This document shows, piece after piece, positions 1 through 29,515 of a stretch of 64,000 nucleotides of DNA (the stretch's first letter is position 1; each line of letters begins with the position of its first letter). The DNA lies in NCBI RefSeq assembly GCF_051622035.1, contig NC_135365.1, forward strand, positions 28,272,001 through 28,336,000, read 5' to 3'. A program made the translations under genes and the position numbers. Below the pieces are notes generated by a model, which saw nothing but the letters and a program-made list of their open reading frames with translations, ran no database searches and was not told where the DNA came from. This stretch comes from Arctopsyche grandis (Eukaryota > Arthropoda > Insecta > Trichoptera > Hydropsychidae).

Positions 1-365
1 TTCATCACATATATCTTGTATCAATGTGATGAAAATAAAAATCAATTCCAAAATGGCCCCCACCTTGGCCATTTTCTGGATCCGCTAGTGTCCACGAGGC
101 ACAACGACTCACAATCATCAACCATATCGATGCCCCTGCCGACCCCGCCGCCCCACCAACCGACATCAGTCTCGGACGAGCGGCGCCGCCGCAGCATCAC
201 AGCATCACGTCACCGCCCTCGAATCTACCGACCATTCAGGGCGGTACACCAACACAGCGGATGACCCACGTCAACAAAAATTTTTCTCTCCCAACTTAAT
301 ATTTTTTTTTCTCATTCTCTGATTATATAATTGTATATATTGTATCGCTGATGCTGAGGGAGGAG
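1..365 (+). mobile_element. 3' internal remnant of an LTR retrotransposon
   Basis: This stretch lies immediately before a putative LTR and ends in a purine run (gagggaggag, about 356-365), as expected of a polypurine tract priming plus-strand synthesis. The segment is proline/arginine-rich in translation (an open frame at 16-264), like the poorly conserved C-terminal tails of integrase-coding regions, but no catalytic motif is present. The rest of the element would lie left of the window. The assignment depends on the LTR call next to it. Confidence 0.35.
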
Positions 366-545
366 TGATGTGGCGGCTCGCTATACGACATGGTCGAGTT
401 TGGTCACCTCCCTGCGAGTGGGGACCAACTCGGCTGTGTTAGCTACCTCACTCCGCCTTCAGAGTAGCTACCTCACTCTGCCTTCAGCTATCATAAATAA
501 AGCACGTGCATCAACATGCCAGTCGTCTCATTCGTTCATCCCCCA
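366..545 (+). repeat. Putative 3' LTR, 180 bp
   Basis: It begins TGATGTGG directly after the purine tract and ends CATCCCCCA, giving the TG...CA boundaries of an LTR. An AATAAA polyadenylation signal sits inside near 497, and a short internal duplication (gtagctacctcactc, about 440-480) is visible. The partner 5' LTR is outside the window, so a target duplication cannot be tested. Confidence 0.45.
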
Positions 546-555
546 TAGTACTAAT

Positions 556-848
556 GGTTCGGTGATTACTAGTCAAATGTGAACCGGTAACAGGATAACC
601 GGTCACTCTAGATCGGTCACACCCAAAAATTGGTCACGAGAAAACTGGTTACACCCGAAAATTGGTCACACCCAAAAATGCGACCAATTTTTAATTTTTG
701 GGTGTGACCGATTTTTTGTGACCAATTGTCGGGTGTAACCAGTTTTCTCGTGACCAATTTTTGGGTGTGACCAGTTTTAGTGTGACGGGTGACGACGTGT
801 GACCGATCTAGAGCGACCGGTTCACAAATGACTAGTAGTCCGTTTACC
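556..848. mobile_element. Palindromic MITE, copy A of the GGTCACGAG family
   Basis: The two halves are inverted copies: the left end reads GGTTCGGTGATTACTAGTCA and the right end is its imperfect reverse complement. Near-identical 8-bp flanks, GTACTAAT at 548-555 and GTACTAAC at 849-856, look like a target-site duplication with one change. The interior consists of alternating TGGTCACGAGAAAACTGGT-like units in both orientations. There is no coding capacity. Related sequence recurs at 32789-33190 and 38826-39089. Confidence 0.75.
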
Positions 849-856
849 GTACTAAC

Positions 857-1470
857 GAGCACTCAAGTACCAGATATTCCTTTTTTTCGTAGCAACAATT
901 TTCGAAATAAAAATAATCCGTTTACCGAAATAAACATGGCCAACGACTATAATGTTTTCCCCACCATCGAAATGGTGATCAATTTTTAATTATATTTAAT
1001 TTAATAAATATAAAATCCCATCGGGCGACGACTTTCAAGCAGTTGTACTTTATTATTATTATTAATACACATTAAAAAATAATAACCATAACATTTAATG
1101 ACCAATTTTACCAATAACAATAAAATAAAAATTCAATCAATCATCTCATTTAAATTCACTCATCTTGAATCTCATGAAACTGACCAATTCAGCAAAGCGA
1201 CAATCAAATAGGTTCAATAGGTTGTATATACTGAAGGCGTGTACATGATTTGTTTAATTTGTCATATATATTTGAACGTTTATTTTTCATTTTACGACTT
1301 TTTATTCTTTTAAAACTCCCACAAACCAATACGAATTGAACACTTCATAAAAATCACACCGCGAAACTTGTACTACGTGTTTATCGACCAATCAGAGAGT
1401 GGTGATCATTTTTTGTTTTGAGATGGTAACTAAGGTGTGGTAAAGGTTTTTTTCTTAACAATAGTTATAA
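857..1470. other. AT-rich intergenic DNA
   Basis: No gene, terminal repeat or RNA structure is recognised. The sequence is low-complexity AT-rich with TTATTATTATTA runs. Confidence 0.5.
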
Positions 1471-1479
1471 ATTAACAAT

Positions 1480-2013
1480 GGTTGTGGCTATTTGCAGGTA
1501 CTATATCTGCAAATTATTGGCTATTTGCAGGTACTATATCTGAGTATTATTGGCTATTTGCAGGTACTATATCTGCGACAGGCGCAAAGCCTTCTGAGCA
1601 TGCGCGTGAACTGTCACTGTCAGCGTGTTTACTGTTAAAATTTTGTTTTAAACCTCTTAAAATTTAGTTCGAACTCGCAAAGTGACGTAGAGTAAAAAAT
1701 ATAATCCAAATTAGTTAATATTATTAATTGTTAGAAAATTATTATCATATACAACGTATAATACCTACATACAAGTACAAGCCGCGAACTAGCTAAATGA
1801 TATAAATCTATTATAATAACGTGCGAAATTTATTTGCCTCATGTATAATGAATGATTGATTAAACAAGTCTAGCATACATTAAATGTAAGAAATTATAAT
1901 CGGATTATAAGTTTACGCGCATGCCCAGAAGGCTTTGCGCCTTTCGCAGATATACATAGTACCTGCAAATAGCCAATAATTCGCAGATATAGTACCTGCA
2001 AATAGCCACAACC
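1480..2013. mobile_element. Inverted-repeat element with 9-bp target duplication (MULE-like MITE)
   Basis: Perfect 9-bp flanks ATTAACAAT (1471-1479 and 2014-2022) bracket an element starting GGTTGTGGCTATTTGCAGG and ending in its reverse complement. The left terminus contains three tandem ~33-bp units built on GGCTATTTGCAGGTACTATA; the right has two in inverse orientation. A second inverted segment (GCGCAAAGCCTTCTG) lies inside. The interior of about 300 bp has no ORF. A 9-bp duplication is typical of Mutator-like and foldback elements. Confidence 0.8.
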
Positions 2014-2121
2014 ATTAACAATATCCATAACGCCAAAACACCATTATGCCCTAATGAGTATCCCTTGTCTGGTGGTAACTTTGTGGTACACAGGTCTTGT
2101 CAAAATAACAGTATCTTGAAT

Positions 2122-2290
2122 CAGCAGCATAGGTCAATGGCTAGCATGTAATGCTTTCAATTGTGTGGTCACGGGATTTATCCCTGGTGTGTGCCGCTGA
2201 CCATACCTTGAATATGTGACCTCAAGGTCGATCGTTTCCTATCAAAGTTTACCAATTTATCTGATTTCATTGAAATCTCTTTCGCAAAAA
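2122..2290 (+). mobile_element. Degenerate tRNA-derived SINE
   Basis: The order matches the better copies at 58566 and 63629: a 'cagcagcat' start, a decayed tRNA-like head, then a body with GGTCGATCGTTTCCTATCA and 'aatttatctgatttcattg'. A and B boxes are badly eroded, so this is an old copy. Confidence 0.6.
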
Positions 2291-4098
2291 TTCGATTTAT
2301 TCATTATCTCGATTTTCGCTGATTTGTATAAATTCTGCAAATTTGTTCATAGATATATCTGTGGATGTTAATCGATGTTTGTATTTGCCTTGTAATAATA
2401 CTTACAATACTTCCGTGCAATGTTCGACCATAGATGTCGTGTTTAATGTAAATAAATAGATATTTAACTGCATATACATATATATTTAATAATTCTTAAT
2501 ATGTATAGCATACTCGTTGCGTTGGATCAATCTGTTAGAGTTAGTTGATTGAATAAAATAAAAATAAAATAACTGAATTTTTCAATTAATGCTTAGTTAC
2601 ACTAATCGTCAGATTTGTCAAAATCTTGACATATTAGTGAGCTAGAGGTTTGGCTTCACGATATACATATGTAGATACATATACATATATGTAAATCGTC
2701 ATCTGATAATTGGTTTGCAGGAAAGCGAACTTTGAAACAATGTAATTAAATAACGTGATACGAACCTTCATTTGCACTGAGGTTACGTTTAGTGCCGCAT
2801 TAAAAATTGTTTAAAAATTCTTTTAATGGATCCTGGAATCATGTATCATGACTAAGTTCATCGAAATGCTTTGAGGTAAGAGATTGACGATTCCATTTCA
2901 ATTTTGGCTTCAACCCTAATATTGTTGAAATTGTTACAAATTCTTCAAATTTATTTCTAAAATTACTGATCTCGCAATATGCATTTCTAATCACAGACTG
3001 AGCACTGATAACATCAGCGTTTTTTGATTGAAGGAGCTTTGAAACAAAGTTGGGAAACCGAAGAAATTTTCAAGAAGCACGAGTAGGAGAATAAATACAA
3101 AACTTTCCATTTTATTTTGTAGTCACTTTTTATCTGATTGTTCATCATTTCTTTTACTTTTTAAAATTATTTCTGTAAGAAATTTTAAAACATCTGTACA
3201 TATACATATGTACCTATATATCGAAGTGCATTAATAGAGTCTAATCTGGACGACCAACAAGCAGTGAACAATCTGTTTAAAGTAACTGGTGGTGAATTTT
3301 CCTTAAAAATTTCCCACCTGTTAATGTTAACCGCGAAAAATTTATAAATTGGTAAATTTTATTGTTTTTCACTTCTTATATAATTTTATTTGATTGTTTT
3401 AACACCGAAAAAATATATACAAGAATAAGAGAGAATTCTCAGCTATATGTACATACACACAATAAGACGAGATGCAAATAGGTAAATATAACAGAGGTTT
3501 TTAAAAAAATTATTACACAGAAATTACAGAAAAAATTAAAAAATCTGTGAAAAAGGCACGGCGCTTTGACCCCCCCCCCAAGTCTCGGCAATGTTATCAG
3601 CAGTGAGTGGCCCTAGGATGCGCCAACTCGAAATAAATGGGTTTCTTTTTTTTGCTCTTTAGAGAGCAAAAAAAAGGTTAAAAATTAAATAAATTAAATG
3701 GTTACCGAGAAAAAATATTTAAAATTACTAATATATAAGAAATTCTTTAGACTTATTACACGTATTAAATTTTCAGTCCAATCCGTTGATGGTTTCGGAT
3801 ATAATTTAATCCAAAAACTTTTAAAAATCGAAAGTAGCCTAATAGGCTTGTAAAAAAAGAGGTATAATATAAGAGAAGGTACAAAAGTCGGATTAAAAAA
3901 TGTCACGAAAATGCAAAAAATATTTTGAAAAAAAAAATTTAAAACAAATTAAATGTAAATTTATTTATGCTCTCCTTTATATTGGAAACTTGAAAAATCT
4001 ACATTTTACAGTTATTGCCGCGCCCGCCTCACTACAGCACTATATACATACATAGATAAAGTCATGGGTTGTCCACAATACGCATTTTTCGCACCAGC
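2291..4098. other. AT-rich intergenic DNA
   Basis: No convincing exon or transposon boundary was seen. A poly-C tract at about 3573 and AT-rich low-complexity runs are the only obvious structure. Short open frames here (for example 3694-3906 minus) have no recognisable composition. Confidence 0.45.
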
Positions 4099-5292: not shown

Positions 5293-5835
5293 TTATGTTA
5301 TTTGAGTTGACTGATTATATGTATAATTAACTAGTATTCCATTGACATACGTATAGGAATGCGTTTCCACAATCATCAATTTGTGCACTTTGAAAATATA
5401 TTTGAAGAGAGTTGACAGCAGGTACACTATCACCATTAGAAATAACAACACCAAAGCGCCGATTACCTTTGCGAGGTATATAATAGTATTGATTATATCC
5501 ATCACTATATTCTCGAAAAGCAGGATCAGGCCGCAAATCTCGAGGAGAGCTCCAGACAATGTCTTGCCAAACAGCATGCAGGCAATGCCGACCAAGAAGA
5601 AGACGGTAGCTATCCTTTTGTCTTCGGCGAAGAATAGCTGGAGAGTCTTTTCATGACCATTGGCATACACTAGTCCTCCAATTAAGATCACGTTGCCGAT
5701 AACCAGCAGCCATACTCCGAGCTGCATCAGCATACCCAGAAAGATGAGCAGAACTCCAGAAACGGCAGCCGTCGACCCGATGAGTCCAATTTTTGTAAAC
5801 ATTTTCATAGTTTTCAGTCGAGTAACCAATTTCAT
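5293..5835 (-). CDS. Got1-like four-helix membrane protein
   Basis: 180 codons without an intron. The first ~115 residues follow the Got1/SFT2 order: IGLIGSTAAVSGVLLIFLGM (helix 1), LLVIGNVILIGGLVYANG (helix 2), a basic/polar loop ending AEDKR, FFLVGIACMLFGKTLSG (helix 3), and LLEICGLILLFENIV (helix 4). Got1 proteins act in ER-Golgi vesicle traffic and are usually about 138 aa. This one has ~40 extra C-terminal residues, including a fifth hydrophobic stretch and a polar tail (TYVNGILVNYTYNQ). Translation could start at Met1, Met10 or Met12; the last two sit right before the conserved helix. It lies 1.1 kb downstream of, and on the same strand as, the giant SecA-like gene. Intronless structure suggests a retrocopy or fast-evolving paralogue, though no poly-A trace is visible. 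Family match is moderate; an unrelated tetraspanning protein is the alternative. Confidence 0.55.
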   Translation of the reverse strand: MKLVTRLKTMKMFTKIGLIGSTAAVSGVLLIFLGMLMQLGVWLLVIGNVILIGGLVYANGHEKTLQLFFAEDKRIATVFFLVGIACMLFGKTLSGALLEICGLILLFENIVMDIINTIIYLAKVIGALVLLFLMVIVYLLSTLFKYIFKVHKLMIVETHSYTYVNGILVNYTYNQSTQIT

Positions 5836-6040
5836 ATCAAAACTCGACTTGCAACTAAAGTTGCCAACTATTTTTGAGACGGTTCTGGGACAATTGGTCT
5901 GAAATAAAATTTAGAAATTAAAAAAAAAATTGCAACATTCTCATTTCCCAAAAATATTTTATAATGAAATATCACTGTTTTTGTTTCGTGACCTCGCGAC
6001 CCGTTCCCGCTATCGCAAGTATAGGGTGGTGTACATGTAA

Positions 6041-6340: not shown

Positions 6341-6944
6341 TCAGAGTGTAAACCTCGCTGATGTACATATATCTACATTTTCTAGTAAGTGTACGCATTG
6401 TCAAAATCATCTGGTCAGTGTACACGGGAGAATGAATGAACACGTTTCCTAGGAAACTCCGTACGTAAGTAAACGTTTACGATAAGAAAAGCTTTATAGT
6501 TGGCCTATGACGGATTACCCAAACTAAAAACTGAGAAAATGCCATACGTGCCATAAGATTCAGTGGGTCTGTGCCTTTAATCTCAACATCCACCTTATCA
6601 GAGGCGTCATTTTTACTGGTTCCAGGGGCTGCAAAAGTTTTGACCAATTTGATGGCTGTTGCCTTTCTAGGTTGTAATATGTCGAAAAATTGTCAAATAT
6701 GTGTATGTGTTAGTGAACCATTTTTTTAAACATTTATTATTATTTATATCTTTTCATCAATAAAATTATTAGTAGGAAAATAATTAAACGACAAAGATTT
6801 AGGTATAAGCACATATGTATATTTACAAAACATAAAAATACATTGAACAAATAAAATGAACACAAGTAAAAAATGTTTCAAAAAATGTTTCTCTAAATTG
6901 TTACCAGTAAAAATAAGTTCCTACAATTAGAATGATTAAACATA
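6341..6944. other. 3' flank of the giant minus-strand gene
   Basis: Mostly AT-rich. On the minus strand, TTTATT at about 6733-6738 reads AATAAA and is a candidate polyadenylation signal for the gene ending at 6945. Nothing else is recognised. Confidence 0.4.
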
Positions 6945-9900
6945 TTACAGTAAAAAAAAGTAGTAAAAAAGCAAATACAATACCAGAGGAAAGTATAAAT
7001 AAGCCGATATATTTATGTAAGAAACATACGTGTACGTTTTGATGACACGTGTTTCGTCGTCTCTTGATTTCTTTCTAGACTTTTTGTTTGTCTTGCACCT
7101 TTGGCAACACTTTACTTTGGCAACACATTCAACTAAGGTCATCTCTATATATTTAACTAAAAACTTCTGTACTGTATCCATTGTAAGATTTTTTTTTCCT
7201 TTGACCAAATTAAGCTCTTTAGTTTTAGATTCGAGTTTTTCTACATTATTTCGGAATTGTAATTGAATCCTTGTCGCCGTGACGCTGTGATGAGACGACT
7301 TGTCGCTGTGTTGATCGTTGTGTTGATTGTTTTCTAGATCTGCTACGTATTGTCTCTTCAATTCGCTCGAGTCTCCAAAGGTTTGTTGTTTGAAGCTATT
7401 CTTAATCTTTGCGTCAATGCTTGCGATCAGACGTACCTTTCGATCGTCCATTATCACATCGAATACATGTTGATTGATGATCTTATCGACGTGTTCGATT
7501 AATTGAGACTTTATCGAGTCGACCATCTTCTTTTCGAATGCGTCGCAATCGTTACTTCCAGAGTCATTTTTACTTTCGTAGTTCAACGTGGTCAGTTCAT
7601 TATTTACACTGTTGATGTAATCATATATGGCATTCAAAATATCGTTAACGTGATTCGATCTGAGATGTGACCATGTGATATTTTCGCATACCTTTTCAAT
7701 AGCAATTTTGGACATGGATTCAGCTTCGTTCACGATCCTGGAAGCTTTTGTGATCTCCTCGGTTACGCTCTCGACTATAGTTTTAGCTATCGTTCTGATT
7801 CTGTCTATAAAGCTTTTTTGACAGTCATTGAAATGCTTTAAGACTAATTCTTCGGCAGCTTTTTCTCCATGTGTATCGAAAGCTCTTCTCAAGATCGTTT
7901 TTACTTTGTGTTCGAATTTGCTACTCTCGATGGACGCCATGATGTCTGATTCCAATTGCTCGCACAGCGAATTTAAAATGTTTTCGATGAATCGATAGAC
8001 GAAAGCGTTTTTCAATACATTATTCATTTGTCTTGTTTCCTTTGATACGCTTTGTTTGGGATTTTTATCTGTGATATCTTTAGACAATTTTTGAATATAT
8101 TTTGACATAAAATATCCAAATAGCGCTGTATCAAGAATAGTAGATCCTACTTCTTCCGCGATATGCGGACTTATATTTTGTACTACATTCTTGGTAGCAG
8201 ACGAACTGATTTTTGAAAAGCTTTTTTGTAAACAAATCGGGATAGTTTCGGAATTAAAATTTTGTGCTGCATTCATGATAGCCTTCGAAACATTAATAAT
8301 CTTCTTGCCTGTGTTTATAAATTTTTCAAAATACGCAGATATAACGCTTTTTGCTGAAGTCAACCAAACATTAGGCAAATTGGAGATTCCTAAAGTCAAC
8401 AAAGATATCGCTTTTTGTTTAAGTTTGAATGCTGCATAATCCTTCCAACTGAAATTGCCATAGTATAGAGAACTTATTCCGTAATATATATCATCTATGC
8501 CTTGTGTGATAGCGAAGGACGAAGAAAATGGGGCCAAAAATGTTCCTACACATATTTCAGCCACACCCAGAAATGTTACTCCGACAGATGAAAGAATCTT
8601 GAAAAAAGTCCATTTTTTTTCCTCCAATTGAATAATATCTCCTAATCCGTTTTGAGAAAACACGTCAGCGTCCTCCCCCATAGAATTCCCATTCTGGTCG
8701 CCAGAATCCGTAAACGACTTTCGTTTCCGTAAACAAAATTTCGGCTTGTCTATGGAATAAATATCGCCAACTAAGCGATTCAACTTATCTTCTATATGTT
8801 TCCGTGTTACATTATCGGACAGCTTTCTGCGATTATCGAATAATTTTTTTATCGTATCTTCAACACAGCTGAATTCTTCATCTAATGCTTCGTTGCACTC
8901 GTCGCTAATAGAGTAATTATTGAATATTTTGAATAATAACCATCCCTTCTCGATCAGATGATCGATAAGAGTGTGTGTGCATTTATTTTTGTCAATTAAT
9001 TTACTTTTCTTCAAATAATCTAACACATGTCCTTTCTTCATGCTAGGCTCGTAGAGTGTTTTTAAGATACTGCTATTTTTATTCTTATCGGCGGAAACAC
9101 GTACTGGATCGATGATTTGTTCCGCGATCAAATCTTGTATCAATTGAATGTGAGGCTTTGGAAGCACAAACCACTGGTTAGGTTTTTCAATGATTTCCTG
9201 AAAAGCTATTCGATATGCAAATCGTAAGTGCAAGAGGATTTTTACATCAGTTTCATAAATAGGATGCCCGGAAATTTGAACGCAGTCAATTTCATTGCAC
9301 TTAATCATCAATTGATAGATTCCACTGTTGGGCTTCTTTTCTTTGAGGACTTTACTATCAGCTAGTTCGTTTAAAATATCCTTCGCGACTTTTCGACTGA
9401 TGTTCATTTTAACAAAATCGCCACATTCGATAGAATCGTAGCAAGAAAAGTTCACGCTTGCATTTTGGTCTATGTTTGCCTTTTTATTGGATTCAAACAC
9501 TCCTCGACTCTTGAGAATACGATACTTTTCTTTGTTTATAATTGCAAGGATGTCAGCTTTGTTAAAAATCAGTTCATCTCCTTTCAACTGTTCGTCATAC
9601 AAAATAATTTGATCGCTATTACCATCCATATCTTTAATATTTTTCTCACTTTTATTTAGAAATATAAACAACGATGGATCTATTTGCTTCAATCTGTCAC
9701 GATGTACTTTTACATATTTGATTTCTGCATTCAACACTTTCGATTTGATCAGTAATTTCCAGAGCGATTCCCTGCTGGGTAACTTGAGACACTTTTTTAT
9801 TCCTTTTTCGAAAGCATTTTCTTCAAAGTTTTTACACTGAGATAAAAAGTCGAATAAATTTCGGCTGTCTATACTGTATTCGCTGCAAACTTTTGGTAAT

Positions 9901-12900
9901 CGAATCTTCAAATTATCATGATTTATCTCAATCTTTTTCAACACATCCAATTCCAATAAGTCTTCGTAAACTATTTGCGACAAATTCTCATCGAGGCAAC
10001 AGCACAAGAATGACTGTGGTGATACAGCATATCCGAGAATATCGTCTATGGATTTTGAGAAAGCACCAATTATAACCTTAATATTCTTCTGCTGCTCTTC
10101 GTAGCCTTCGAATTGGAGAAGTCCTCTGTTGTTCTGCTTCATGTTTCTAATCGTGGTCGTCTTACTCGAGATGTGCTCCACAGTTTTGTCGAGAATCGCT
10201 GAAGTTTTGCGCAATTCTTTTTTCACTTCGGTTATGAACGTGTCCTTAGATTTAGAGTTCAGTTTTGAAATTGCTTGCAATGTGCGGTAATAGTAGGCTG
10301 CCTCGCAAAACTGAGGTTCTAGATTTATAATTTGGTCGAACATAATGGTCGCCTGGTCGTGATAATTATTTTGGGTGAAGTATTTTGCTAACTTTGTGAT
10401 TTGAAAAGGGTTTGCGATCCACTTGCAGACCTTCTTCCAGTCGTTCTCTGTATTACAATTTATTGAGTAATTCAATAATGGCGGAACTAACGATTCTATT
10501 TCTTGGAATTTACTATGTAACTTGTCTTGATCTTTTGCCAGTTTGTCTATGTCTTTGTTGTGTTTGTCCAACCATACAGCCCACTTGTCGAGATAGCTTT
10601 GAATTATGATATCCTTCACTTCATTTGCCGTGGAACCATTTTTCAGATTTTTCTGCAGATTACTATAACTCTTTTGAAACATAATGAAAAAAATTTCTTC
10701 AACTTTGATACGATCTTCGTAGTGAGCTTTGATATCAGATATTCGGAGAAGTTCTTCGCTGTCACGCTGCATCTTCAAGTCAAATATTCGAAAGTTGTGA
10801 TTTTTAGATGTTTCCAAATTTAAAATGATCAATTGACCAGATCCTTTGTCGCCACATCTTGCAGCTCTTCCAAAAGCTTGTTGCTCTATCCGAATATTAT
10901 TCGGCAAGTAAGCCAAACAAACAAGCAATCCTCCAGCGTGTTTCAACGACTGAGATATTTTTATGTCAGTTCCGCGACCAGCAAGATTTGTAGCGATAAT
11001 TACATGTCCCTGATCCAACCCTATATTACTTTGGACGATGTCAAACTCTTCGTAGTCTCTCGTGTAAGTGTGAACGTATTCTTTCGGCAACTTAGCTGCG
11101 ATTGATTTTGACACAACTTCCACGTCACCTATCGTCTCGCAAATGATCAAAATTGATCGTCTTTGCTTTTGGGTTACGTCAATCGCTTTAGCAATTAGCT
11201 TCTCGATCCATGCATCTTTGATATCGCAAACTAGGGGTTGCTCTTCGACAAACTGTTTGTATTTTGCAGTAGGAATTGTGACAAAATCGACAGAATAAAT
11301 ATTCTCCAGCAATTGCCTCTCTGGCTTCGATCCCAAAGTACCCGTCAGTCCATATACTGTCTTGTACAGTTTAATGAAGGACACGTTAGATATAAAGACG
11401 GCTTTCAAAGACTGCACGGAAAGTCTACAGCCGTGCTTCAGTTGCAAAAACTGATGCAAAGCATTGTCCCATTGGGAATTGGCGTTATCTGTTCCGGTAT
11501 CCCTGTCCAAGACTATGATGTTAGGGTTGGAATCCGGGCTCTGTCCAGTCCTATCCAAGTCTACTATGTAATCGTGACGATCTTTCATAAACAATGCAGT
11601 TTTAGCGCTCGCGATCCAAGAGTCCAGGTGTTGCTCCACGAAGGGTTTTAAGTATTCAGGTATCCAAATTTTCTTTTGCGCTTCACTACAATCTTTCAAA
11701 AGGTACATGAAATGCTCAACGTATTCTTTGAATGAAGTCGATACTTTCTTTTTCACATCTTCGAAATCATCGTTGAGCAACTTCCCTTTGTCGTCTATTA
11801 CCCCTTCGTTCACCAAACTCTCCCACAGACGATTCGATTGCTCTTCGTCATTTTGACACACTTTTCTGATATCATTTCTCTCGATCACCGTATACAGATT
11901 AAACAGCACGGCATTTTTAATAAGCTCCGCGTTCAAACTGTGTGCGATTTGTTCGGCATTTGATGCCGGTCTGTTAATCCATTGCCATATGAAGACGTAT
12001 ACTGAGTCGAGCTTGTCCAGGCCGGGAAAATCGTGCGATAGATACAAAACATTATTGCCTTTGTCCAGCAACATGCTATCCACTTCATCGACGATGACAT
12101 TGTCATAGCTGCTATTGCCAAGTATGTTCTTTCCGTAGAACCGATCGAGTAGATAGTCGCGTTGGAAGTTGGACAGGTCACCGTAGACCACTTGATTGCT
12201 CGAATACATATTCTTCTTAGCTTCCATATCTTCGGTGCAATTGTGGGACACGTTCAAATCAAACAACGCATAAATGTCTTGATTTTCTTTGGCGTCACGT
12301 TTTGCCAGCACAGAGGAGCTGGTGACTACATCAACCCTTTCACCATAAAGTGCTTTCATTATAGCCAACGTCACTACTATCAAAGATTTCCCTTCCCCGG
12401 TGGAAATCTGCGCCAACATATTGGAATCGTTGTTGATAAACATCAACACAGATAGCTTTTGGGTGTTGCGAAGATTGAACTTCCTCTTCAGCTCAATCGC
12501 TCTGTCTATAACGGCTAGTACCTCTTGACAATTTTGCTTCATGTACTCTTTCATTTTCGCTTTATCGTCTTTGAATGTAGATGCGTTTTTTTTTAAATCT
12601 GTAGCCCATTTTTTAATATCATTTTCTAGCAATTTACAATTTTCATTTATGGTTTTAAAAGAGGACACTTTTTTACGTACAGCCTCGGAAGTGTTTGAAT
12701 TCTCCGATATAAGTTTCACTAGTTCAGAAACATTTCTCTCATTTTTATTCGGATCTAACAACGTATGAAATCCTCCTAATTTGTTGGTTTTTGAAAGTTT
12801 TTGCATCTCTTCCTTCGTAAATGGTATATTTTCCTTGTAAAAATGTAGGGCTAACTCGCAGAATGTATCGGGATTCAGTGCTCTATTATTGCGCTCCAAA

Positions 12901-15900
12901 ATCTGCAAGAACTCGTCCACCAGCAATTCGCCGTGAGTATTATCCAACGACACAATGTAGTAACAAACCTGTAACAGTTTATCACTCTCACCCCAATCGA
13001 CAATTTTCATCAACTTATACTCCAGATATTTCACTCTGAGAGCATGGGGCCATTCCGTCAGACCGATTTCATTCAGATTCATCGAATCGATCGGAATGCA
13101 ACTTAGTCTGTGCAAAATAGTATCAACACATCGGTCATAAGTTGATGGCTCCCCTCTAAAATCGTCCAATTTCATAGCCAGCAACATCAGAACATCGATA
13201 TTATCAATCTTCAGCAGATACTCCAACCACTTTTCCCGATATGAGAGCGATTTCCGAAAGAAACTTTCTAAACGCAGCATCACCAAACGAGCCGTCCAAT
13301 CAGTCTGAGGACAAGTACTGACGATCCAACTGAATATATTTCCCAAACAATCACCATTGACTGCCGAGCTTAAAACGCAACCCACAAGATAGTACAATTC
13401 ATCAAAAGACACTTGCCTACCCTCGTTGGCGAAACGTTTGGCGATGTAGTACAGGACGCTGGAGTTGCCGATGTATTCCGAAGTTATCTTCTTCAAACAA
13501 TATTGCATTTGTTTTTTCTCATGGTCGGCTATAAAAGCATCCGAAATTGTCTTTATTCTATTTTCCTCGTTCGATTGGTAGTCAGTGTAAAAAGCATCGT
13601 TGTTTAAATAATTCTCATACGATAAGAACTTACTGCTATTATAATAATCAAGAATGGTTGGTACTTGCTTGAGAAGCTCGATTTCAGAAAGTACTTTCGC
13701 ATACATGTCGTTTTTCCACTGCCTTTGTTTTTCCAATATTAAATAATCCTCGTGGACTTTCAGCTGCTTGAAGTAACCACTGGCAGTCAGATGAAAGTGC
13801 AAGCAGTTCTTGGCCGAAGGGTTGTGGCTTTCCATCAGATAGAATTTCCTTTGGTCATTTCGACGGTAAACTCTGATGTTCAAATCAAAAATGCACGCCA
13901 ACAATTCCCTAAAACTTCCACTATTTGGACCATTCTCTTTGATGTGATCGGCGTGTTCTTTCTTTAGAAGCTGATCTTTAAAGCATTCGTCCCAGTCGTA
14001 TTTGAGTTTCAGCTCCGATGTAAAACGCCCATGAAGACTTTTCAGATTCTTGTCTCGGCTAATTTTTTGCAATATTGCAATCGAGCGATGCTCCTCGTTG
14101 GAATTGCCAATGCAGGGATACTTTATCTGTCTGAAAAGTTCAATTTCGATAATAGCACGGATTTTGTTTGCGCTATCGTCGCGTTTCTTACAAAAGTCTG
14201 CATATTTAATAGACTTTGCAACTCTCTGAGGCGTTTTATCGTTTTTGATCTCTTCAACACAATTGCAATTTTCTATAACAAAATTTTTAATTGACTCTTT
14301 CAACGCTTCACTGATGCTTTCATCATCATTAGAACACTCCAGGTGCGCAGATATTTTCTCGTATTTTTCTGACGCATAAGCGTTAAAATATTGATTTATA
14401 TCACCCAGAATATTATGAGACACAATATTTGCTTTCGCGTCAGTTTCATACAGGTATTTGTCAATTGTTTTGTTGTTTGCACTAAATTCTGGCACACAAG
14501 TGATTATTTTTTTGTCAATCTCCAACAATGTAGCCGCGCGACATTTTTTGACTAAAAGAGTTTCCACCATATTCAACAACATCTTTATTTCCAGACTTTT
14601 GTCAGCCTTCTGTTTCAATGATTCCAAGCCGTAAAAGTATTTTGTGATATCATTGAAAGCCAACTCTCCACTTTTCAAGTGCTTCCAAAACTCCACAGCA
14701 TCGTTGAAAGAGTCGGGACAGTTCAGTTTTTGAATCTGCTTCACTTTGGTTGTAGGTCTAACAGATTTAAAACAATTATTTCGACTGCGAGGTTTCTGAG
14801 ACGTATAATTTAAATTCCGTTTTAAACGTTCAGTGGACTTATTTTCATGGTGCTCTCTATTAGTCTGATCTAGGCGTTGTTCGATGCTGCTCAGATCAGA
14901 TTTCAAACCTTTCAAAATTACATCCTCTGCAGAATTTAAACGGCTTTTATAATTGTTTAACAGCTTTCCAGTTGGTATAGCCTTTCTTCTCGTAGCCATC
15001 TCACGATTTCGTCGATCCGTTTTCTTTGTACAGTTTCTTTCCAATTTTATCACATCGTTCTTCAAAGGTTCACTCCTAATCGAGGCATACGCTTGTTTAT
15101 AAGGACACCACGCTCCATTGTGCTTACTATCGGTATACTTAATAGTTAGTTTATCATTCATATTTTCACCGTAAATGCTTGTCCAACCACTTCGAAATAT
15201 TTGCATAGCACATGTATAAGCTATATCCCAACCATTTTTTCCATGTTTTCCATTTAAACCACCTTTGCCATCTTCGCCCTCTTTTCCATTGCGAGCTTTT
15301 ATCGCAATTTCAAAATTAGTGTCCTTTTGCAAATGCTTCACAGTTATATCGCCAGTGAATCCACCTTTACCACCTAATCCCGCTTCGCCTCCATTTCCTC
15401 CTACTTTACCCAATGATCCTTTGTACACCAAAAAAAAATTTTTTTTTACTCCAAACGAATAGTAGGAAAAAATAATTTCGTTTCCGCTATTTTTTATGAC
15501 ATGTCTGAAAGCATCACTAACGAAGGAATTTTTACCATCGCTAGATTTAACAGTGGCAACATCACTATCTATATATTGTATACATTCTTCATAGTCACTA
15601 CCTGAATAATATTGTTTTACGAATCTATTCTTAAACTCTCCTATAGTCATACTCGTTCCATCCAATCCGTCTGCTCCATTCCCACCATCTTGACCCACAC
15701 CGCCATCTCCACCATTTGAAATTATGGTGAAATTTTGCGGAAAATCTATGGAATTCGCCAAAATCAAGACATTTCCACCGCTTTCGCCAGCGCTTCCGTC
15801 AGCACCTTGACTTCCATTTGCAGCTACAGTGGAAATTTTTACTGCATCTTTCCCGGAAACGTTCCAAGTGATACAGTCGTAAATTTTGATCTCTTTCACA

Positions 15901-17510
15901 ACAACCAGCATATTTATCCCATGCCAAATGTCATTACTTAGACTAGCATCTATGTGCAGAATACTCGCACCGACGATACGCACTTCTTCAATGGTAGGAT
16001 TTCTGACAATTTCCCGTCTTAATTTTGGTTCAACATCACTAAAATCTATGTTTTTTCCCGTTACTTTGAGTACCACCCGTCCATCGACTGATAACTCACG
16101 TATTTCCACTCCTCTGATGAATTCACTGGCTACTTCTTTCAATTGATCTTCGTAAAACAATTCTGAGACCTTCAACAAAGGTTCTGCTGCGTTTTGCAAT
16201 GCCAAAAATTCAATGCTGTCGATTTTTTTACATTCGATAATTTTCTTCAACAGGTCCTTAAAACAGACCTTCCCAGAGCAAAACTTTTCTAAATCTAAAA
16301 TATCGGTAATCCATTGTGTGTGTTTGGATGATGTAAAAAATTCTACGAATCTTTCGAAAAAAATCACCTCCGTCTTGATAAAATCTTTAAATGCTGAAAC
16401 ACAGGTTACGCACTCCGAATTAATCTTTCCAAGAAAATCAATGTTTTTCGAGGAGTCGACTAATGAATAGTGTTCAAGCAAAAGTGCATAGTACGGCGAC
16501 GATTTGAAGCAATCAGGAATTTGATCTATACTTTCCAATTTTCCAATTATTTTGAGTAGCTGCTTAAAAACGTCATATTTCTTTGTATCGATCGATTTTC
16601 GAAGAAACTTCACAATGTGAAGCATGAACAGTTCAAAACAAAATTTCAAATAAACTGTCTCGATGTATATACAATCGGTGCTGCTCAAAGAAGTCTCGAT
16701 TAAAATTTTCATGCGAGATAAATTACTTTGGGATTCTTCCATCTCAGTCTGGACGAGAATGTCGATGTCGTGTTTCTGGACCGTTTTGACTCTCACATCA
16801 AACATACTTTTCAAATACAAACTTTCTGCCGATTTGATGTACTCCTCAGCTATTTTGAAGTTATCCGTCAAATCATAAGCTATCGCTATTATATTAGAGT
16901 GTACTTTTATGGTCAAGACATTAGTACTAGTGGGAATTGTCAGGGTTTCTTCCAGTTGATTTATAGCCCAAATCAGTTGAATGTTCATGACTTTTTGCCA
17001 TAAATCAAAGTCGCAATCTTGCAGTGTGCTGATTTCACATTTCGAAAAGTCGCCATAGTATATAGTCTTGTTTAAGAGTCTGTCCTGATTCGTTTCAAAA
17101 TTTTGAACTTGCCGAAGGAGGCTTTCCGCATCGTTTTTTAATTTTTCAATTTCGGTGGATGTATTTTCGACGGGAATATCGCATATTTTTTGTAGGCATT
17201 TTTCCATACATTTTTCGACACTTCCTAGGGAGATTCGCTCCCTGTCGGATAGTTCGTTGTAATGTAATCCCAAATCGTAATAATGAAAGGCTAAACGTTC
17301 ACAACGGTCGTTCCACGAATATTTTTTCAATGTAAAATCGCCATTTAATCGTTTATATAATAAGTTGATATTTCTTGCCAGGCTACTCAACCATTCTTCT
17401 CTTTCTATGGCAAATTGAGAATAATCATATAGAATCGCCTCAATATTCTTCAATGAGATGTCATTGACCATGCAACTGAGCAGATGAATTTTTCTCTGCA
17501 TGCCAGTCAT
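6945..17510 (-). CDS. Giant SecA-like DEAD-motor protein (3521 aa, intronless)
   Basis: A single 10.6-kb ORF. An in-frame TGA lies two codons before Met1, so the start is supported unless an upstream exon splices in. Residues 1-550 are helical and unassigned. About 570-757 is a glycine-rich collagen-like segment (GADGSAGESGG, GGDGGVGQDGGNGADG, GGNGGEAGLGGKGG) in two blocks. About 1155-1256 has weak similarity in order to OTU folds but lacks a recognisable DGNC motif. About 1600-2240 is a SecA-type motor: STGEGKSL (GEGKS 1705-1709), TSSSVLAKRDA, VVYGDLSNFQRDYLLD, VDEVDS (DEVDS 1808-1812), YGLTGT (2053-2058), ATNLAGRGTD (GRGTD 2178-2182), and QAFGRAARCGDKGSGQL. SecA family motors are ATP-driven preprotein translocases in bacteria and plastids; no substrate can be inferred here. 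Residues 2300-2900 are helical with short repeated L..L....VLD units. About 2967-2994 is hydrophobic, and the extreme C-terminus (3498-3521) is a hydrophobic tail after KCCQRCK and basic residues. A GTATGT near 7025 on the minus strand could instead be a splice donor that removes the tail. Confidence 0.85.
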   Translation of the reverse strand: MTGMQRKIHLLSCMVNDISLKNIEAILYDYSQFAIEREEWLSSLARNINLLYKRLNGDFTLKKYSWNDRCERLAFHYYDLGLHYNELSDRERISLGSVEKCMEKCLQKICDIPVENTSTEIEKLKNDAESLLRQVQNFETNQDRLLNKTIYYGDFSKCEISTLQDCDFDLWQKVMNIQLIWAINQLEETLTIPTSTNVLTIKVHSNIIAIAYDLTDNFKIAEEYIKSAESLYLKSMFDVRVKTVQKHDIDILVQTEMEESQSNLSRMKILIETSLSSTDCIYIETVYLKFCFELFMLHIVKFLRKSIDTKKYDVFKQLLKIIGKLESIDQIPDCFKSSPYYALLLEHYSLVDSSKNIDFLGKINSECVTCVSAFKDFIKTEVIFFERFVEFFTSSKHTQWITDILDLEKFCSGKVCFKDLLKKIIECKKIDSIEFLALQNAAEPLLKVSELFYEDQLKEVASEFIRGVEIRELSVDGRVVLKVTGKNIDFSDVEPKLRREIVRNPTIEEVRIVGASILHIDASLSNDIWHGINMLVVVKEIKIYDCITWNVSGKDAVKISTVAANGSQGADGSAGESGGNVLILANSIDFPQNFTIISNGGDGGVGQDGGNGADGLDGTSMTIGEFKNRFVKQYYSGSDYEECIQYIDSDVATVKSSDGKNSFVSDAFRHVIKNSGNEIIFSYYSFGVKKNFFLVYKGSLGKVGGNGGEAGLGGKGGFTGDITVKHLQKDTNFEIAIKARNGKEGEDGKGGLNGKHGKNGWDIAYTCAMQIFRSGWTSIYGENMNDKLTIKYTDSKHNGAWCPYKQAYASIRSEPLKNDVIKLERNCTKKTDRRNREMATRRKAIPTGKLLNNYKSRLNSAEDVILKGLKSDLSSIEQRLDQTNREHHENKSTERLKRNLNYTSQKPRSRNNCFKSVRPTTKVKQIQKLNCPDSFNDAVEFWKHLKSGELAFNDITKYFYGLESLKQKADKSLEIKMLLNMVETLLVKKCRAATLLEIDKKIITCVPEFSANNKTIDKYLYETDAKANIVSHNILGDINQYFNAYASEKYEKISAHLECSNDDESISEALKESIKNFVIENCNCVEEIKNDKTPQRVAKSIKYADFCKKRDDSANKIRAIIEIELFRQIKYPCIGNSNEEHRSIAILQKISRDKNLKSLHGRFTSELKLKYDWDECFKDQLLKKEHADHIKENGPNSGSFRELLACIFDLNIRVYRRNDQRKFYLMESHNPSAKNCLHFHLTASGYFKQLKVHEDYLILEKQRQWKNDMYAKVLSEIELLKQVPTILDYYNSSKFLSYENYLNNDAFYTDYQSNEENRIKTISDAFIADHEKKQMQYCLKKITSEYIGNSSVLYYIAKRFANEGRQVSFDELYYLVGCVLSSAVNGDCLGNIFSWIVSTCPQTDWTARLVMLRLESFFRKSLSYREKWLEYLLKIDNIDVLMLLAMKLDDFRGEPSTYDRCVDTILHRLSCIPIDSMNLNEIGLTEWPHALRVKYLEYKLMKIVDWGESDKLLQVCYYIVSLDNTHGELLVDEFLQILERNNRALNPDTFCELALHFYKENIPFTKEEMQKLSKTNKLGGFHTLLDPNKNERNVSELVKLISENSNTSEAVRKKVSSFKTINENCKLLENDIKKWATDLKKNASTFKDDKAKMKEYMKQNCQEVLAVIDRAIELKRKFNLRNTQKLSVLMFINNDSNMLAQISTGEGKSLIVVTLAIMKALYGERVDVVTSSSVLAKRDAKENQDIYALFDLNVSHNCTEDMEAKKNMYSSNQVVYGDLSNFQRDYLLDRFYGKNILGNSSYDNVIVDEVDSMLLDKGNNVLYLSHDFPGLDKLDSVYVFIWQWINRPASNAEQIAHSLNAELIKNAVLFNLYTVIERNDIRKVCQNDEEQSNRLWESLVNEGVIDDKGKLLNDDFEDVKKKVSTSFKEYVEHFMYLLKDCSEAQKKIWIPEYLKPFVEQHLDSWIASAKTALFMKDRHDYIVDLDRTGQSPDSNPNIIVLDRDTGTDNANSQWDNALHQFLQLKHGCRLSVQSLKAVFISNVSFIKLYKTVYGLTGTLGSKPERQLLENIYSVDFVTIPTAKYKQFVEEQPLVCDIKDAWIEKLIAKAIDVTQKQRRSILIICETIGDVEVVSKSIAAKLPKEYVHTYTRDYEEFDIVQSNIGLDQGHVIIATNLAGRGTDIKISQSLKHAGGLLVCLAYLPNNIRIEQQAFGRAARCGDKGSGQLIILNLETSKNHNFRIFDLKMQRDSEELLRISDIKAHYEDRIKVEEIFFIMFQKSYSNLQKNLKNGSTANEVKDIIIQSYLDKWAVWLDKHNKDIDKLAKDQDKLHSKFQEIESLVPPLLNYSINCNTENDWKKVCKWIANPFQITKLAKYFTQNNYHDQATIMFDQIINLEPQFCEAAYYYRTLQAISKLNSKSKDTFITEVKKELRKTSAILDKTVEHISSKTTTIRNMKQNNRGLLQFEGYEEQQKNIKVIIGAFSKSIDDILGYAVSPQSFLCCCLDENLSQIVYEDLLELDVLKKIEINHDNLKIRLPKVCSEYSIDSRNLFDFLSQCKNFEENAFEKGIKKCLKLPSRESLWKLLIKSKVLNAEIKYVKVHRDRLKQIDPSLFIFLNKSEKNIKDMDGNSDQIILYDEQLKGDELIFNKADILAIINKEKYRILKSRGVFESNKKANIDQNASVNFSCYDSIECGDFVKMNISRKVAKDILNELADSKVLKEKKPNSGIYQLMIKCNEIDCVQISGHPIYETDVKILLHLRFAYRIAFQEIIEKPNQWFVLPKPHIQLIQDLIAEQIIDPVRVSADKNKNSSILKTLYEPSMKKGHVLDYLKKSKLIDKNKCTHTLIDHLIEKGWLLFKIFNNYSISDECNEALDEEFSCVEDTIKKLFDNRRKLSDNVTRKHIEDKLNRLVGDIYSIDKPKFCLRKRKSFTDSGDQNGNSMGEDADVFSQNGLGDIIQLEEKKWTFFKILSSVGVTFLGVAEICVGTFLAPFSSSFAITQGIDDIYYGISSLYYGNFSWKDYAAFKLKQKAISLLTLGISNLPNVWLTSAKSVISAYFEKFINTGKKIINVSKAIMNAAQNFNSETIPICLQKSFSKISSSATKNVVQNISPHIAEEVGSTILDTALFGYFMSKYIQKLSKDITDKNPKQSVSKETRQMNNVLKNAFVYRFIENILNSLCEQLESDIMASIESSKFEHKVKTILRRAFDTHGEKAAEELVLKHFNDCQKSFIDRIRTIAKTIVESVTEEITKASRIVNEAESMSKIAIEKVCENITWSHLRSNHVNDILNAIYDYINSVNNELTTLNYESKNDSGSNDCDAFEKKMVDSIKSQLIEHVDKIINQHVFDVIMDDRKVRLIASIDAKIKNSFKQQTFGDSSELKRQYVADLENNQHNDQHSDKSSHHSVTATRIQLQFRNNVEKLESKTKELNLVKGKKNLTMDTVQKFLVKYIEMTLVECVAKVKCCQRCKTNKKSRKKSRDDETRVIKTYTYVSYINISAYLYFPLVLYLLFYYFFLL

Positions 17511-18603: not shown

Positions 18604-20562
18604 ATTAAATAAAACACATCCGAAAATGTAATAAAATAAAGTAAAAAGCATCGCTTTGATTTATTGATTTGTTTTTTACAAATAGTTGAAATAATCCACC
18701 CAATATAAAAAAAACGTATTACTTTATGTAAAGTAAATGTATTACTTCATGTAAAAAATTCGAATGTGACCAACCTGCGACTTTATCTATGTATTTGAGG
18801 AATATATGAAGTATAAAAAAATTCGATAATCGAACATATGTATGTACATACACGTTCACACATACCGGCTATGAGCATTTTCAATACAAATTGAACGCAA
18901 ATGTAGGAAAACTTACACAGACTAAAGTTCTACTTCAGTCCGATTTGATGAGTGGTTTGGGAGATAATTTAAATCAAAAAGTTAAAAAGAAAGAGAACAC
19001 CTATAAGGGGAGGTACCATTTCCGGTCAACTTAAAAATTTGAAAAAAAAATTACGGTGTATCGATAAAAATTTTAGTAACCAATACCAAGTTTCAGTTAG
19101 GACGAACAGTGTTCAAAAAATCCCCAAAATACATTGACACACAATAAACATACAGACACTCACACAGAAACACAGACATTTTTTCTAGATCACGAAAACG
19201 TGATCAGTAGAGGTAGGCCCGGAAGCGTGTCGTTTATTGTTCAATTGTTGTAAATCCTTTGTAAAAAAGGTTCGGCAAACCTTTAACAATACACTTACAA
19301 CATTTGAACAATATACAGCCCCCTCAGGGTCCGGGCTTTAGTGATCAGTGGTCGATTCTGAGTTCGAATTAGTTAAAATATACTTCAAATATCATTGCGG
19401 TTGAGCACAATATCTGCGACAAAATACAGCCGTTCATACCATTTCGTGGAAACGGCAAGCCGGCGTCGAAACGGGTGGCAAACAAATGGACTATGACTGT
19501 CATTGCTCATACCACCATTGTTCATTATATAATATTGCTTTATGTTTTTTCCATATTATTTTTGTAAAAATAATATTTTTAAATAAATTTCTGCCAGCAC
19601 CGTAATCCCGGTATTCAGACTATTTCAGCACCGGGATTCACGGTGCCAGAAAACACCGGGATCCCGGGATTGGAAGCATTAATGGACATCTACATAGGTA
19701 CATACCAGTGGCGTGCGGACCATGGATGCTGTGGATGCGCCGCATCCCTTAAAATTTACGTCAAAAATATTTTCATACAGTTTATTTTCTGAATTTATTT
19801 TATTATAATTTTGTTTATCTTTCATTTATTAATCGATTACGTGATAATCTCAATTAAAACGTTAACGAAACAATATTCAAATTTCACTCTGATCTGTTTG
19901 GCAGAAAATTTATCTTAACAGTTCCATCATAAGACATTTGTTTGTGTACACACAGTCGTGGATATAAAAAAAGCCGGATGTCTGCATATTACATTCAATT
20001 TGGGTTTTTTCCCAGAATTATGTCTCGATTGTTTTCATTTTTTTTTTGGAATATGGCACACTTCAGGTGCCTGATATTTGAGATAATGCAAGTTTTAAAA
20101 GTTCGGCAGTTTTTTGTTAGACGCCACCGCGCAAACATTTCGCAAAAAAATGGATATCTCGAAGTAGATGTCGATTGTTGTAAAATCAAAAATTATTACG
20201 TTATTACAAGAAAATCTTTCTATGCTTGAAATATCTCGTCGAGTGGGATTTGGAGAGAGCTCTGCTCGTCGATTTTTGAAAAAAATATCGAGAAACTGTT
20301 ACTCTGGAGGAAACCAGGGAACGGAAGAGGACGTGTGACCAGTGTTCACAAAGATCGTCATATCAAGCACATGATGCTAGAAAATTCATTCAAAACAGCG
20401 GAAGAAATTCCGGAGAGCTTCAAGCATCAGATCATATGACATTTTGGGAAAAAACATTGAGGAAGTGACTTTAAGAGCATGAATATCGGCCACACTGCCC
20501 TGCCAAAAAGCCGTTTTTTACGCTTAAAATGTGAAAAAATCATCTAAATTGGGCTAAGAATC

Positions 20563-28089: not shown

Positions 28090-29085
28090 AATTTTTTTTT
28101 GCCTTCTAGGGCTTCGCCCTCGGCGCCCCCCTGAGCCTTTGCCTTCTAGGGCTTCGCCCCTCCACGCCCCATGAGCAATTGCCGTTTAGGGCTTCGCCCC
28201 CATGATCAGTTGCCTTTTAGGGCTTCGCCCCTCCGCGCCCCCATGATTAAAAGCCGTCTAGGGCTTCGCCCCCCTAAGTTAATGCCTTTTAGGGCTTCGT
28301 CCCCCGCGCCCCAAAGGTTAATTGCCGTTTAGGGCTTCGCCCCCCTTAGTTAATGCCTTTTAGGGCTTCGCCCCTCCGCACCCCCATGATTAAATGCCGT
28401 CTAGGGCTTCGCCCCCCTTAGTTAATGCCTTTTAGGGCTTCGCCCCCCGCGCCCCCAAGATTAATTGCCGTTTAGGGCTTCGCCCCCCTTAGTTAATGCC
28501 TTTTAGGGCTTCGCCCCTCCGCGCCCCCATGGTTAAATGCCGTCTAGGGCTTCGCCCCCATGATCAGTTGCCTTTTAGGGCTTCGCCCCCCGCGCCCCCA
28601 AGATTAATTGCCGTTTAGGGCTTCGCCCCCCTTAGTTAATGCCTTTTAGGGCTTCGCCCCTCCGCGCCCCCATGATTAAATGCCGTCTAGGGCTTCGCCC
28701 CCATGATCAGTTGCCGATAAGGGCTTCGCCCCTCCACTTCCCCATGGTTAATTGCCGTCTAGGGCTTCGCCCCCCTTAACTAATGCCTTTTGGGGCTTCG
28801 CCCCTCCACGTCCCCATGATTAAATGCCGTCCAAGGCTTCGCCCCCATGATCAGTTGCCTTTTAGGGCTTCGCCCCCCACGCCCCCAAGATTAATTGCCG
28901 TTTAGGGCTTCGCCCCCCTTAGTTAATGCCTTTTAGGGCTTCGCCCCTCCGCGCCCCCATGATTAAATGCCGTCTAAGGCTTCGCCCCCATGATCAGTTG
29001 CCTTTTAGGGCTTCGCCCCTCCGCGCCCCCATGATTAATTGCCGTCTAGGGCTTCGCCCCCCTTAGTTAATGCCTATTAGGGCTT
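28090..29085. repeat. GC-rich tandem array of GGGCTTCGCCC hairpins
   Basis: Roughly 27 copies of TAGGGCTTCGCCCC spaced ~30-40 bp apart, joined by alternating spacers such as 'ccatgattaaatgccgtc', 'ccttagttaatgcctttt' and 'catgatcagttgcctttt'. Each core is a perfect stem GGGC/GCCC around TTC. Higher-order units of two or three spacers recur. This is a sharp composition change in otherwise AT-rich DNA. No protein is supported. Confidence 0.9.
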
Positions 29086-29515
29086 GCGCCCCATGAGGCT
29101 GGGCCCCCCGGGCCTCCTTCGGGGCCCCACGGGGCTGCGCCCCTTGTGGCGCCCCCTTTTGAGCCACATGGGGCTGCGCCCCATGAGGCTGGGCCCCCCG
29201 GGCCCCCTTCGGGGCCCCACGGGGCCCCACGGGGCCCCACGGGGCTGCGCCCCTTGTGGCGCCCCCTTTTGAGCCCCATGGGGCTGCGCCCCATGAGGCT
29301 GCGCCCCATGAGGCTGCGCCCCTTGTGGTGCCCCCTCTTGAGCCCCATGGGGCTGCGCCCCATGAGGCTGGGCCCCACGGGGCTGCGCCCCTTGTGGCGC
29401 CCCCTTTTGAGCCCCATGGGGCTGCGCCCCATGAGGCTGGGGCCCCACGGGGCTGCGCCCCTTGTGGCGCCCCTGGCGGGGCCCCATGAAACTACTCGCC
29501 TTGCGCCCCCGCGGG
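29086..29515. repeat. GC-rich tandem array of GGGGCTGCGCCCC palindromes
   Basis: It continues directly from the previous array but with a different core, GGGGCTGCGCCCC (stem GGGGC/GCCCC, loop TGC), plus CCATGAGGCTG, GGGCCCCACGGGGC and CTTTTGAGCCCCATG units. Because the units are multiples of three in places, long spurious open frames occur in several frames on both strands (GAQPHGAQ-type); these are repeat artefacts. Confidence 0.9.

Follow-up and report, generated by a model that had tools for sequence, protein, structure and literature searches.

The stretch of DNA analysed here (the window) comprises 64,000 nucleotides of the trichopteran insect Arctopsyche grandis (NC_135365.1, positions 28,272,001 to 28,336,000), and its principal feature is a giant intronless open reading frame (ORF) at positions 6945–17510. 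Judged by its sequence, this chromosomal gene without introns belongs to a family of giant proteins with a built-in SecA-type motor. The uninterrupted frame reported in a preliminary description of this DNA is real, and near full-length homologues were found for it, but the description had omitted its strand: the ORF lies on the minus strand, with its ATG at 17510, an in-frame stop two codons upstream of the ATG and 3521 codons containing no stop, whereas the plus-strand frame from 6945 contains many stops. A candidate polyadenylation signal (AATAAA, 6733–6738, minus strand) is located 206 nt past the stop codon. The assembly totals 476 Mb in 189 contigs; the window is part of one of 30.8 Mb (C11) and also contains open frames for a hAT transposase and for long interspersed nuclear element (LINE) reverse transcriptases. 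As had been supposed, it sits in an animal-type chromosome and not in a bacterial contig.

SecA is a bacterial motor that pumps proteins. In the window protein (P0001), Pfam, a structure model and structure matches place a SecA-fold motor with putative scaffold helices at residues 1610–2360 (10431–12683, minus strand), about one fifth of the 3521 residues. Motif searches located, on the same strand, the Walker A motif STGEGKS (residues 1703–1709; 12384–12404), the Walker B motif DEVDSM (1808–1813; 12072–12089), YGLTGTLGS (2053–2061; 11328–11354), TNLAGRGTD (2174–2182; 10965–10991) and QQAFGRAARCGD (2210–2221; 10848–10883). All five motif groups named earlier are thus present, in one copy each and in the expected order, and both SecA nucleotide-binding domains are present with intact motifs. 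The match is to SecA rather than to a generic DEAD box, since SecA_DEAD scored 124.7 bits (5.6e-36) and P-loop_SecA 42.4 bits (8.1e-11) compared with 26.3 bits for generic DEAD, and of 25 PDB sequences with a match at E ≤ 1, 24 are SecA and one is a designed protein (E 0.2). In a structure model of residues 1590–2560 (predicted local distance difference test, 84.7), model residues 21–771 align to SecA residues 14–778 over 614 residues with a root-mean-square deviation of 4.5 (whole-chain alignment); as modelled, the motor fold spans most of SecA. For the preprotein cross-linking domain, Pfam SecA_PP_bind has no match in the window protein and stays below its cut-off in two relatives, P0093 and P0090. 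Among the curated NCBIfam SecA models, the best score was 185.3 bits against cut-offs of at least 725 bits (TIGR00963, 145.6 against 800 bits), which, together with the length of 3521 residues, agrees with the earlier proposal that the protein is not built as a Sec exporter.

The N-terminal region (residues 1–460; 16131–17510, minus strand) can be aligned to relatives and contains no known domain, with no Pfam match in residues 1–439, and a glycine-rich repeat region (residues ∼540–770; 15201–15893, minus strand), in which the Gly columns are nearly invariant in alignment A1, likewise has no Pfam match. A hydrophobic region (residues 2931–3130; 8121–8720, minus strand) is shared with bacterial giants, as profile matches show, and evolves fast in this copy. 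From its sequence we infer a membrane role; its structure model has low to middling confidence, residues 2930–3180 gave no convincing Pfam match, and its resemblance to the latrotoxin C-terminal domain is presumed. The last part that can be aligned to relatives (residues 3201–3467; 7110–7910, minus strand) is also fast-evolving. Beyond it, an OTU-like region and a C-terminal tip are missing: the OTU-like profile and five tip profiles had no match in the window in six frames, and the final ∼50 residues look like read-through.

A search with residues 1590–2330 retrieved 747 proteins at E ≤ 0.001, of which the best 120 were used. These come from Wolbachia, bees, ants, a sawfly, mosquitoes, flies, Artemia, a spider, rotifers, nematodes and Mytilus, as well as from metagenome and EukProt records. 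The expansion in arthropods proposed earlier is supported by many arthropod relatives, but rotifers, nematodes and Mytilus carry the family too. Many relatives align over nearly the whole length of the window protein and others over parts of it; Wolbachia proteins align almost end to end (residues ∼35–3447; 22–67% identity per 250-residue block for the Wolbachia giants), and the Harpegnathos giants over long stretches. Matches of this number and length, like the absence of stops described below, exceed by far what chance would give. Among the 120, 24 animal copies are taken as chromosomal since they lie on contigs >10 Mb. An OTU-like match followed by a tail of at least 100 residues is found in 17 of these 24, two of the 17 (Culex) having weak matches; P0071 was left out of the 17 because its OTU-like match is partial and its tail spurious. 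In a tree rooted with three ordinary SecA proteins, all giants fall on one side (support 100). A branch with support 99 sets apart 32 protein-search rows (animals, Wolbachia, a Rickettsiales metagenome-assembled genome and others), which are nested among 16 rows of bacterial or viral-contig origin. Branches are long and the inner order is weak; the nesting upholds the bacterial relationship put forward earlier and suggests that the family was bacterial before it entered animals, the Wolbachia and arthropod copies lying close to each other. Two animal-derived records, P0017 (Artemia) and P0020 (the moth Chilo), cluster within the Wolbachia group on terminal branches of 0.05 and 0.09 changes per motor column, a placement that by sequence is an apparent recent exchange.

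The feature that the preliminary description missed, and which we consider the key one, is the exchange of C-terminal tips among relatives together with the loss of the tip here. The family body shared by bacteria and animals consists of the SecA motor and, in nearly all members checked, the hydrophobic region; the animal/Wolbachia branch adds the N-terminal region, the glycine-rich repeats and the OTU-like region. The 120 relatives and the window protein make a set of 121. In 92 of these, none of them the window protein, an OTU-like stretch, in some cases weak or partial, lies past the position at which the window protein stops, and in most of the 92 a tail follows. The 88 tails of at least 40 residues form 18 clusters. 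Closely related giants can differ sharply at their ends: Wolbachia P0004 and P0005 are 98–100% identical per 200-residue block up to residue 3600 and then 38% and 15%, and P0009 and P0010 are 83–100% identical per block up to 3400 and 21% at the end. P0011 and P0012, whose bodies are less uniform (62–100% per block), reach 13% at the end. The same is seen outside Wolbachia in two pairs on contigs of bacterial type, namely in Rickettsia-symbiont giants (L014/L015: 88–98% for residues 400–2400, 42% in one N-terminal block, 8% at the end) and in viral-contig giants (L016/L017: 90–100% up to 2800, 19% at the end). On a motor tree with 84 labelled rows and 14 tip states, 25 changes are needed, a raw count without a shuffled control.

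Several tips belong to recognised families. An OTT_1508 deaminase tip occurs in both P0093 (Wolbachia) and P0090 (rotifer), and curated cut-offs were passed by two of 10 tails, with GIY-YIG in P0083 and Endonuclea_NS_2 in P0121. Among 10 bacterial or viral-contig C-terminal stretches, that of L016 matched WHH (3.8e-16) and Colicin-DNase (4.7e-11), that of L011 matched Pertussis_S1 barely above and Scabin-like below the cut-off (which we take to be ADP-ribosyltransferase-type matches), L019 has LysM, L018 has a RickCE (peptidase) match below the cut-off, and the remaining six gave nothing convincing. Separately, P0017 (Artemia) and P0025 contain an LTLHHIIP motif that looks HNH-like by eye.

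In L016, the giant is overlapped at its end by a gene for a SUKH protein (3.7e-23), an immunity family; this gene is followed by an ORF that, by eye, repeats part of the pre-tip sequence, and then by a DUF6980 protein. L017, with a different tip, has a different small gene at the SUKH position, and both contigs continue into a nearly identical 603-residue gene. No immunity family was matched by the small neighbour genes in L014, L017 and L019. Other bacterial relatives lie on plasmids of Megaera, Bandiella and Legionella geestiana. On the Candidatus Megaera plasmid (L018, 347–20815), a 5225-residue SecA giant is followed after 21 bases by a 1589-residue SecA-like gene, and a 2947-residue SecA giant occupies about two thirds of the 13.8-kb L. 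geestiana plasmid (L020).

Since the conserved body, the exchanged, unrelated tips that include nucleases and deaminases, and the SUKH neighbour in one locus correspond to the build of polymorphic toxins, the family is very probably of this type. An ordinary animal unfoldase or chaperone, with variable tails acting as adaptors rather than toxins, would suit the broad animal distribution, the numerous tails without a toxin match and the six small SecA-like genes of this genome (below). We consider it improbable, because tips are replaced between nearly identical giants and because of the same nuclease and deaminase tips and SUKH neighbour.

A SecA_DEAD search of the assembly returned nine matches, namely the window gene, a second giant, six single frames and a 117-residue piece. 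The second giant (C5:33015508–33027993) has an open frame of 4162 residues and is the sister of the window giant (100/100), their motors being 76% identical. In this second giant the hydrophobic region is kept, the OTU-like region is matched at 4.7e-44, and the tip is related (2.6e-28) to the one carried by Wolbachia P0009; compared with the genome, its OTU-plus-tip stretch matched only itself. Many members of the family share the OTU-like region, so its absence from the window copy most likely reflects a loss. The six single-frame genes (L034–L039; C6:2.44 Mb, C12:24.7 Mb and C11:5.96, 7.10, 29.17 and 29.19 Mb) have 1331–1521 codons and mutual identities of 52–91%; two of them lie 16 kb apart with a synonymous divergence (dS) of 0.07. 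In size alone, they are similar to Wolbachia wBol1_1091 (4488 nt; PMC3639933).

The sister gene also bears on how the window gene arrived. A recent transfer from Wolbachia, or contamination of the assembly, could account for the best-scoring database relatives being mainly Wolbachia or metagenome proteins (57–58% identity in the motor). However, identity goes no higher than this, the closest relative is the paralog found elsewhere in this genome on a second large contig, the host contig measures 30.8 Mb, and none of the nine matches, the best of which has 131 bits, appears to reach the score of an ordinary secA; the chance of such an origin is close to negligible. The recent arrival considered earlier likewise does not fit, since the window gene and its sister are old duplicates, their motors being 76% identical and dS ∼1.1.

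Between the two giants, the ratio of nonsynonymous to synonymous divergence (dN/dS) is 0.27 overall, 0.16 in the motor and 0.28–0.32 at the end, with dS near saturation and a pairwise ratio giving no branch-specific constraint. Tajima relative rate tests, with Wolbachia P0002 and Apolygus P0036 as outgroups, compared unique changes in the window and C5 copies. Using P0002, the motor showed 48 versus 37 unique changes (chi-square 1.4), and four regions spanning residues 461–2930 gave chi-square values of 0.2–1.4, whereas residues 2931–3200 showed 50 versus 19 (13.9) and residues 3201–3470 showed 48 versus 15 (17.3). With P0036, the two C-terminal regions gave 12.0 and 7.1 and the four regions 0.2–3.0. 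Residues 1–460 are somewhat faster in the window copy (50 versus 28, chi-square 6.2 with P0002; 4.3 with P0036). In a simulation of neutral drift with 775 changes since the duplication, ∼55 stops were expected (minimum 40 in 100 runs), compared with none observed. With the tip lost, the rate test, dN/dS and the simulation taken together indicate that the delivery end is relaxed while the motor is still constrained. A dying relic, in which the end was lost and a leftover open frame is turning into a pseudogene, would agree with the absent tip, the fast C-terminal region, the somewhat faster residues 1–460 and the read-through appearance of the last ∼50 residues. The lack of stops, the motor dN/dS and a motor rate equal to that of the tipped sister make this unlikely.

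We therefore favour, with a probability of roughly two in three, a detoxified, tipless copy of a polymorphic-toxin-type SecA giant. The order of the parts and the known action of SecA prompt the proposal that, in full-length members, an ATP-driven motor would pull on the chain or push it and so deliver or unfold the tip, moving the C-terminal part of its own chain across a membrane that the hydrophobic region contacts; that the motor delivers the tip is, in our judgement, an even bet. The window copy could not deliver a tip. It is probably functional without one, and may have been retained for its motor and the regions preceding it, either to move or unfold polypeptides as an ATPase or to regulate the tipped sister; by its sequence, it looks like part of a bacterial weapon turned to a new use. 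A bolder version, that animal chromosomes carry and diversify bacterially derived SecA polymorphic toxins, which serve the animals as effectors, and that duplication and tip loss made the window copy a partner or antidote of the sister on another chromosome, is speculative and rather doubtful. Several points weigh against the favoured interpretation. 'Toxin' is demonstrated for a minority of tips, since most tails lack a family match: the two commonest tip clusters have none in Pfam or NCBIfam, and the other eight of the 10 tails divide into seven without a convincing match and one below the cut-off. Neither a Pfam match nor a fold was obtained for the OTU-like region, the hydrophobic region has no recognised fold, and the SUKH gene lies beside one giant only. 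The limits of the pairwise dN/dS count here too, and the faster residues 1–460 mean that no constraint is shown for the extreme N-terminus. Under this interpretation, the giant secA genes of insects, known but unexplained, gain a testable function. If the motor delivers the tip, a translocating motor within the toxin chain would be a delivery principle of its own. The tipped and tipless pair in one genome, with its region-specific acceleration, opens the change from a toxin into a domesticated host protein to direct observation.

The flanks of the ORF were considered in relation to a further possibility, that a eukaryotic mobile element or a virus carries these intronless genes from host to host. 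A 30-nt inverted pair (83% complementary; 4048–4077 and 18765–18794) encloses the giant ORF, with neither arm found elsewhere in the window, and short repeats are common to the flanks of the window giant and of other SecA loci in the genome. Mobility would also suit the plasmid-borne bacterial relatives and the identities per 250-residue block between giants of different hosts (Osmia/Wolbachia 70–90%, Artemia/Wolbachia 58–93%, all three together 56–93%). Of the repeats listed (25 of 36 inverted pairs and 20 of 21 direct families), none is a long terminal repeat flanking the ORF, two viral-contig scans gave no matches and a third just two distant relatives (34–35%), so that this origin is very improbable. 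Downstream of the giant, on the same strand and within the inverted pair, lies an intronless 205-residue ORF (5293–5910) with a Got1/Sft2-like domain (5.3e-7). Elsewhere in the AT-rich window are GC-rich tandem arrays of 72/143-bp and 69/110-bp units (28100–29500), whose overlapping long frames are probably spurious, the hAT transposase with a BED finger (30220–32106, plus strand), the LINE-type reverse transcriptase frame (42729–46824, minus strand) with a frame beside it judged gag-like by eye, and two exon-like frames (48172–50576, plus strand) that presumably resemble the animal gene TMEM201.

Compared with known systems, the window protein shares its motor fold with bacterial SecA, from which its length and its scores far below the NCBIfam cut-offs set it apart. 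At the family level, the giants resemble polymorphic toxins in their exchangeable tips, a minority of which belong to known toxin families, with the tip absent from the window copy. Giant actinobacterial toxins related to polymorphic toxins, as described in PMC8195603, also combine a SecA-like ATPase with a giant toxin but have other domains, including helix-turn-helix domains; the likeness is one of description. The same applies to mosquito SGS proteins and spider latrotoxins, presented in PMC3482391 as endosymbiont toxin genes reused by arthropods, with the SGS toxin domain replaced; the passages on them mention SecA-like domains in Amoebophilus effectors and no SecA motor in SGS or latrotoxins. 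SecA-domain genes in the eukaryotic association module of phage WO are, according to PMC5062602, closer to invertebrate than to bacterial proteins and classed under virulence-factor secretion; in the phage collection, our 22 matching records are all <60% identical. A close parallel is provided by the giant secA genes of Wolbachia (wBol1_1092) and insects, described in PMC3639933 as having few true introns and full-length similarity. The window ORF, with >3000 residues, no introns and full-length similarity to other Wolbachia giants, is like wBol1_1092 and the Harpegnathos and Daphnia giants in length, intron scarcity and Wolbachia–arthropod exchange. The section on giants in that paper describes neither tips being exchanged, nor the families of such tips, nor copies without a tip, and it argues for transfer from eukaryotes to Wolbachia, whereas in our rooted tree the animal/Wolbachia set is nested inside the bacterial giants.
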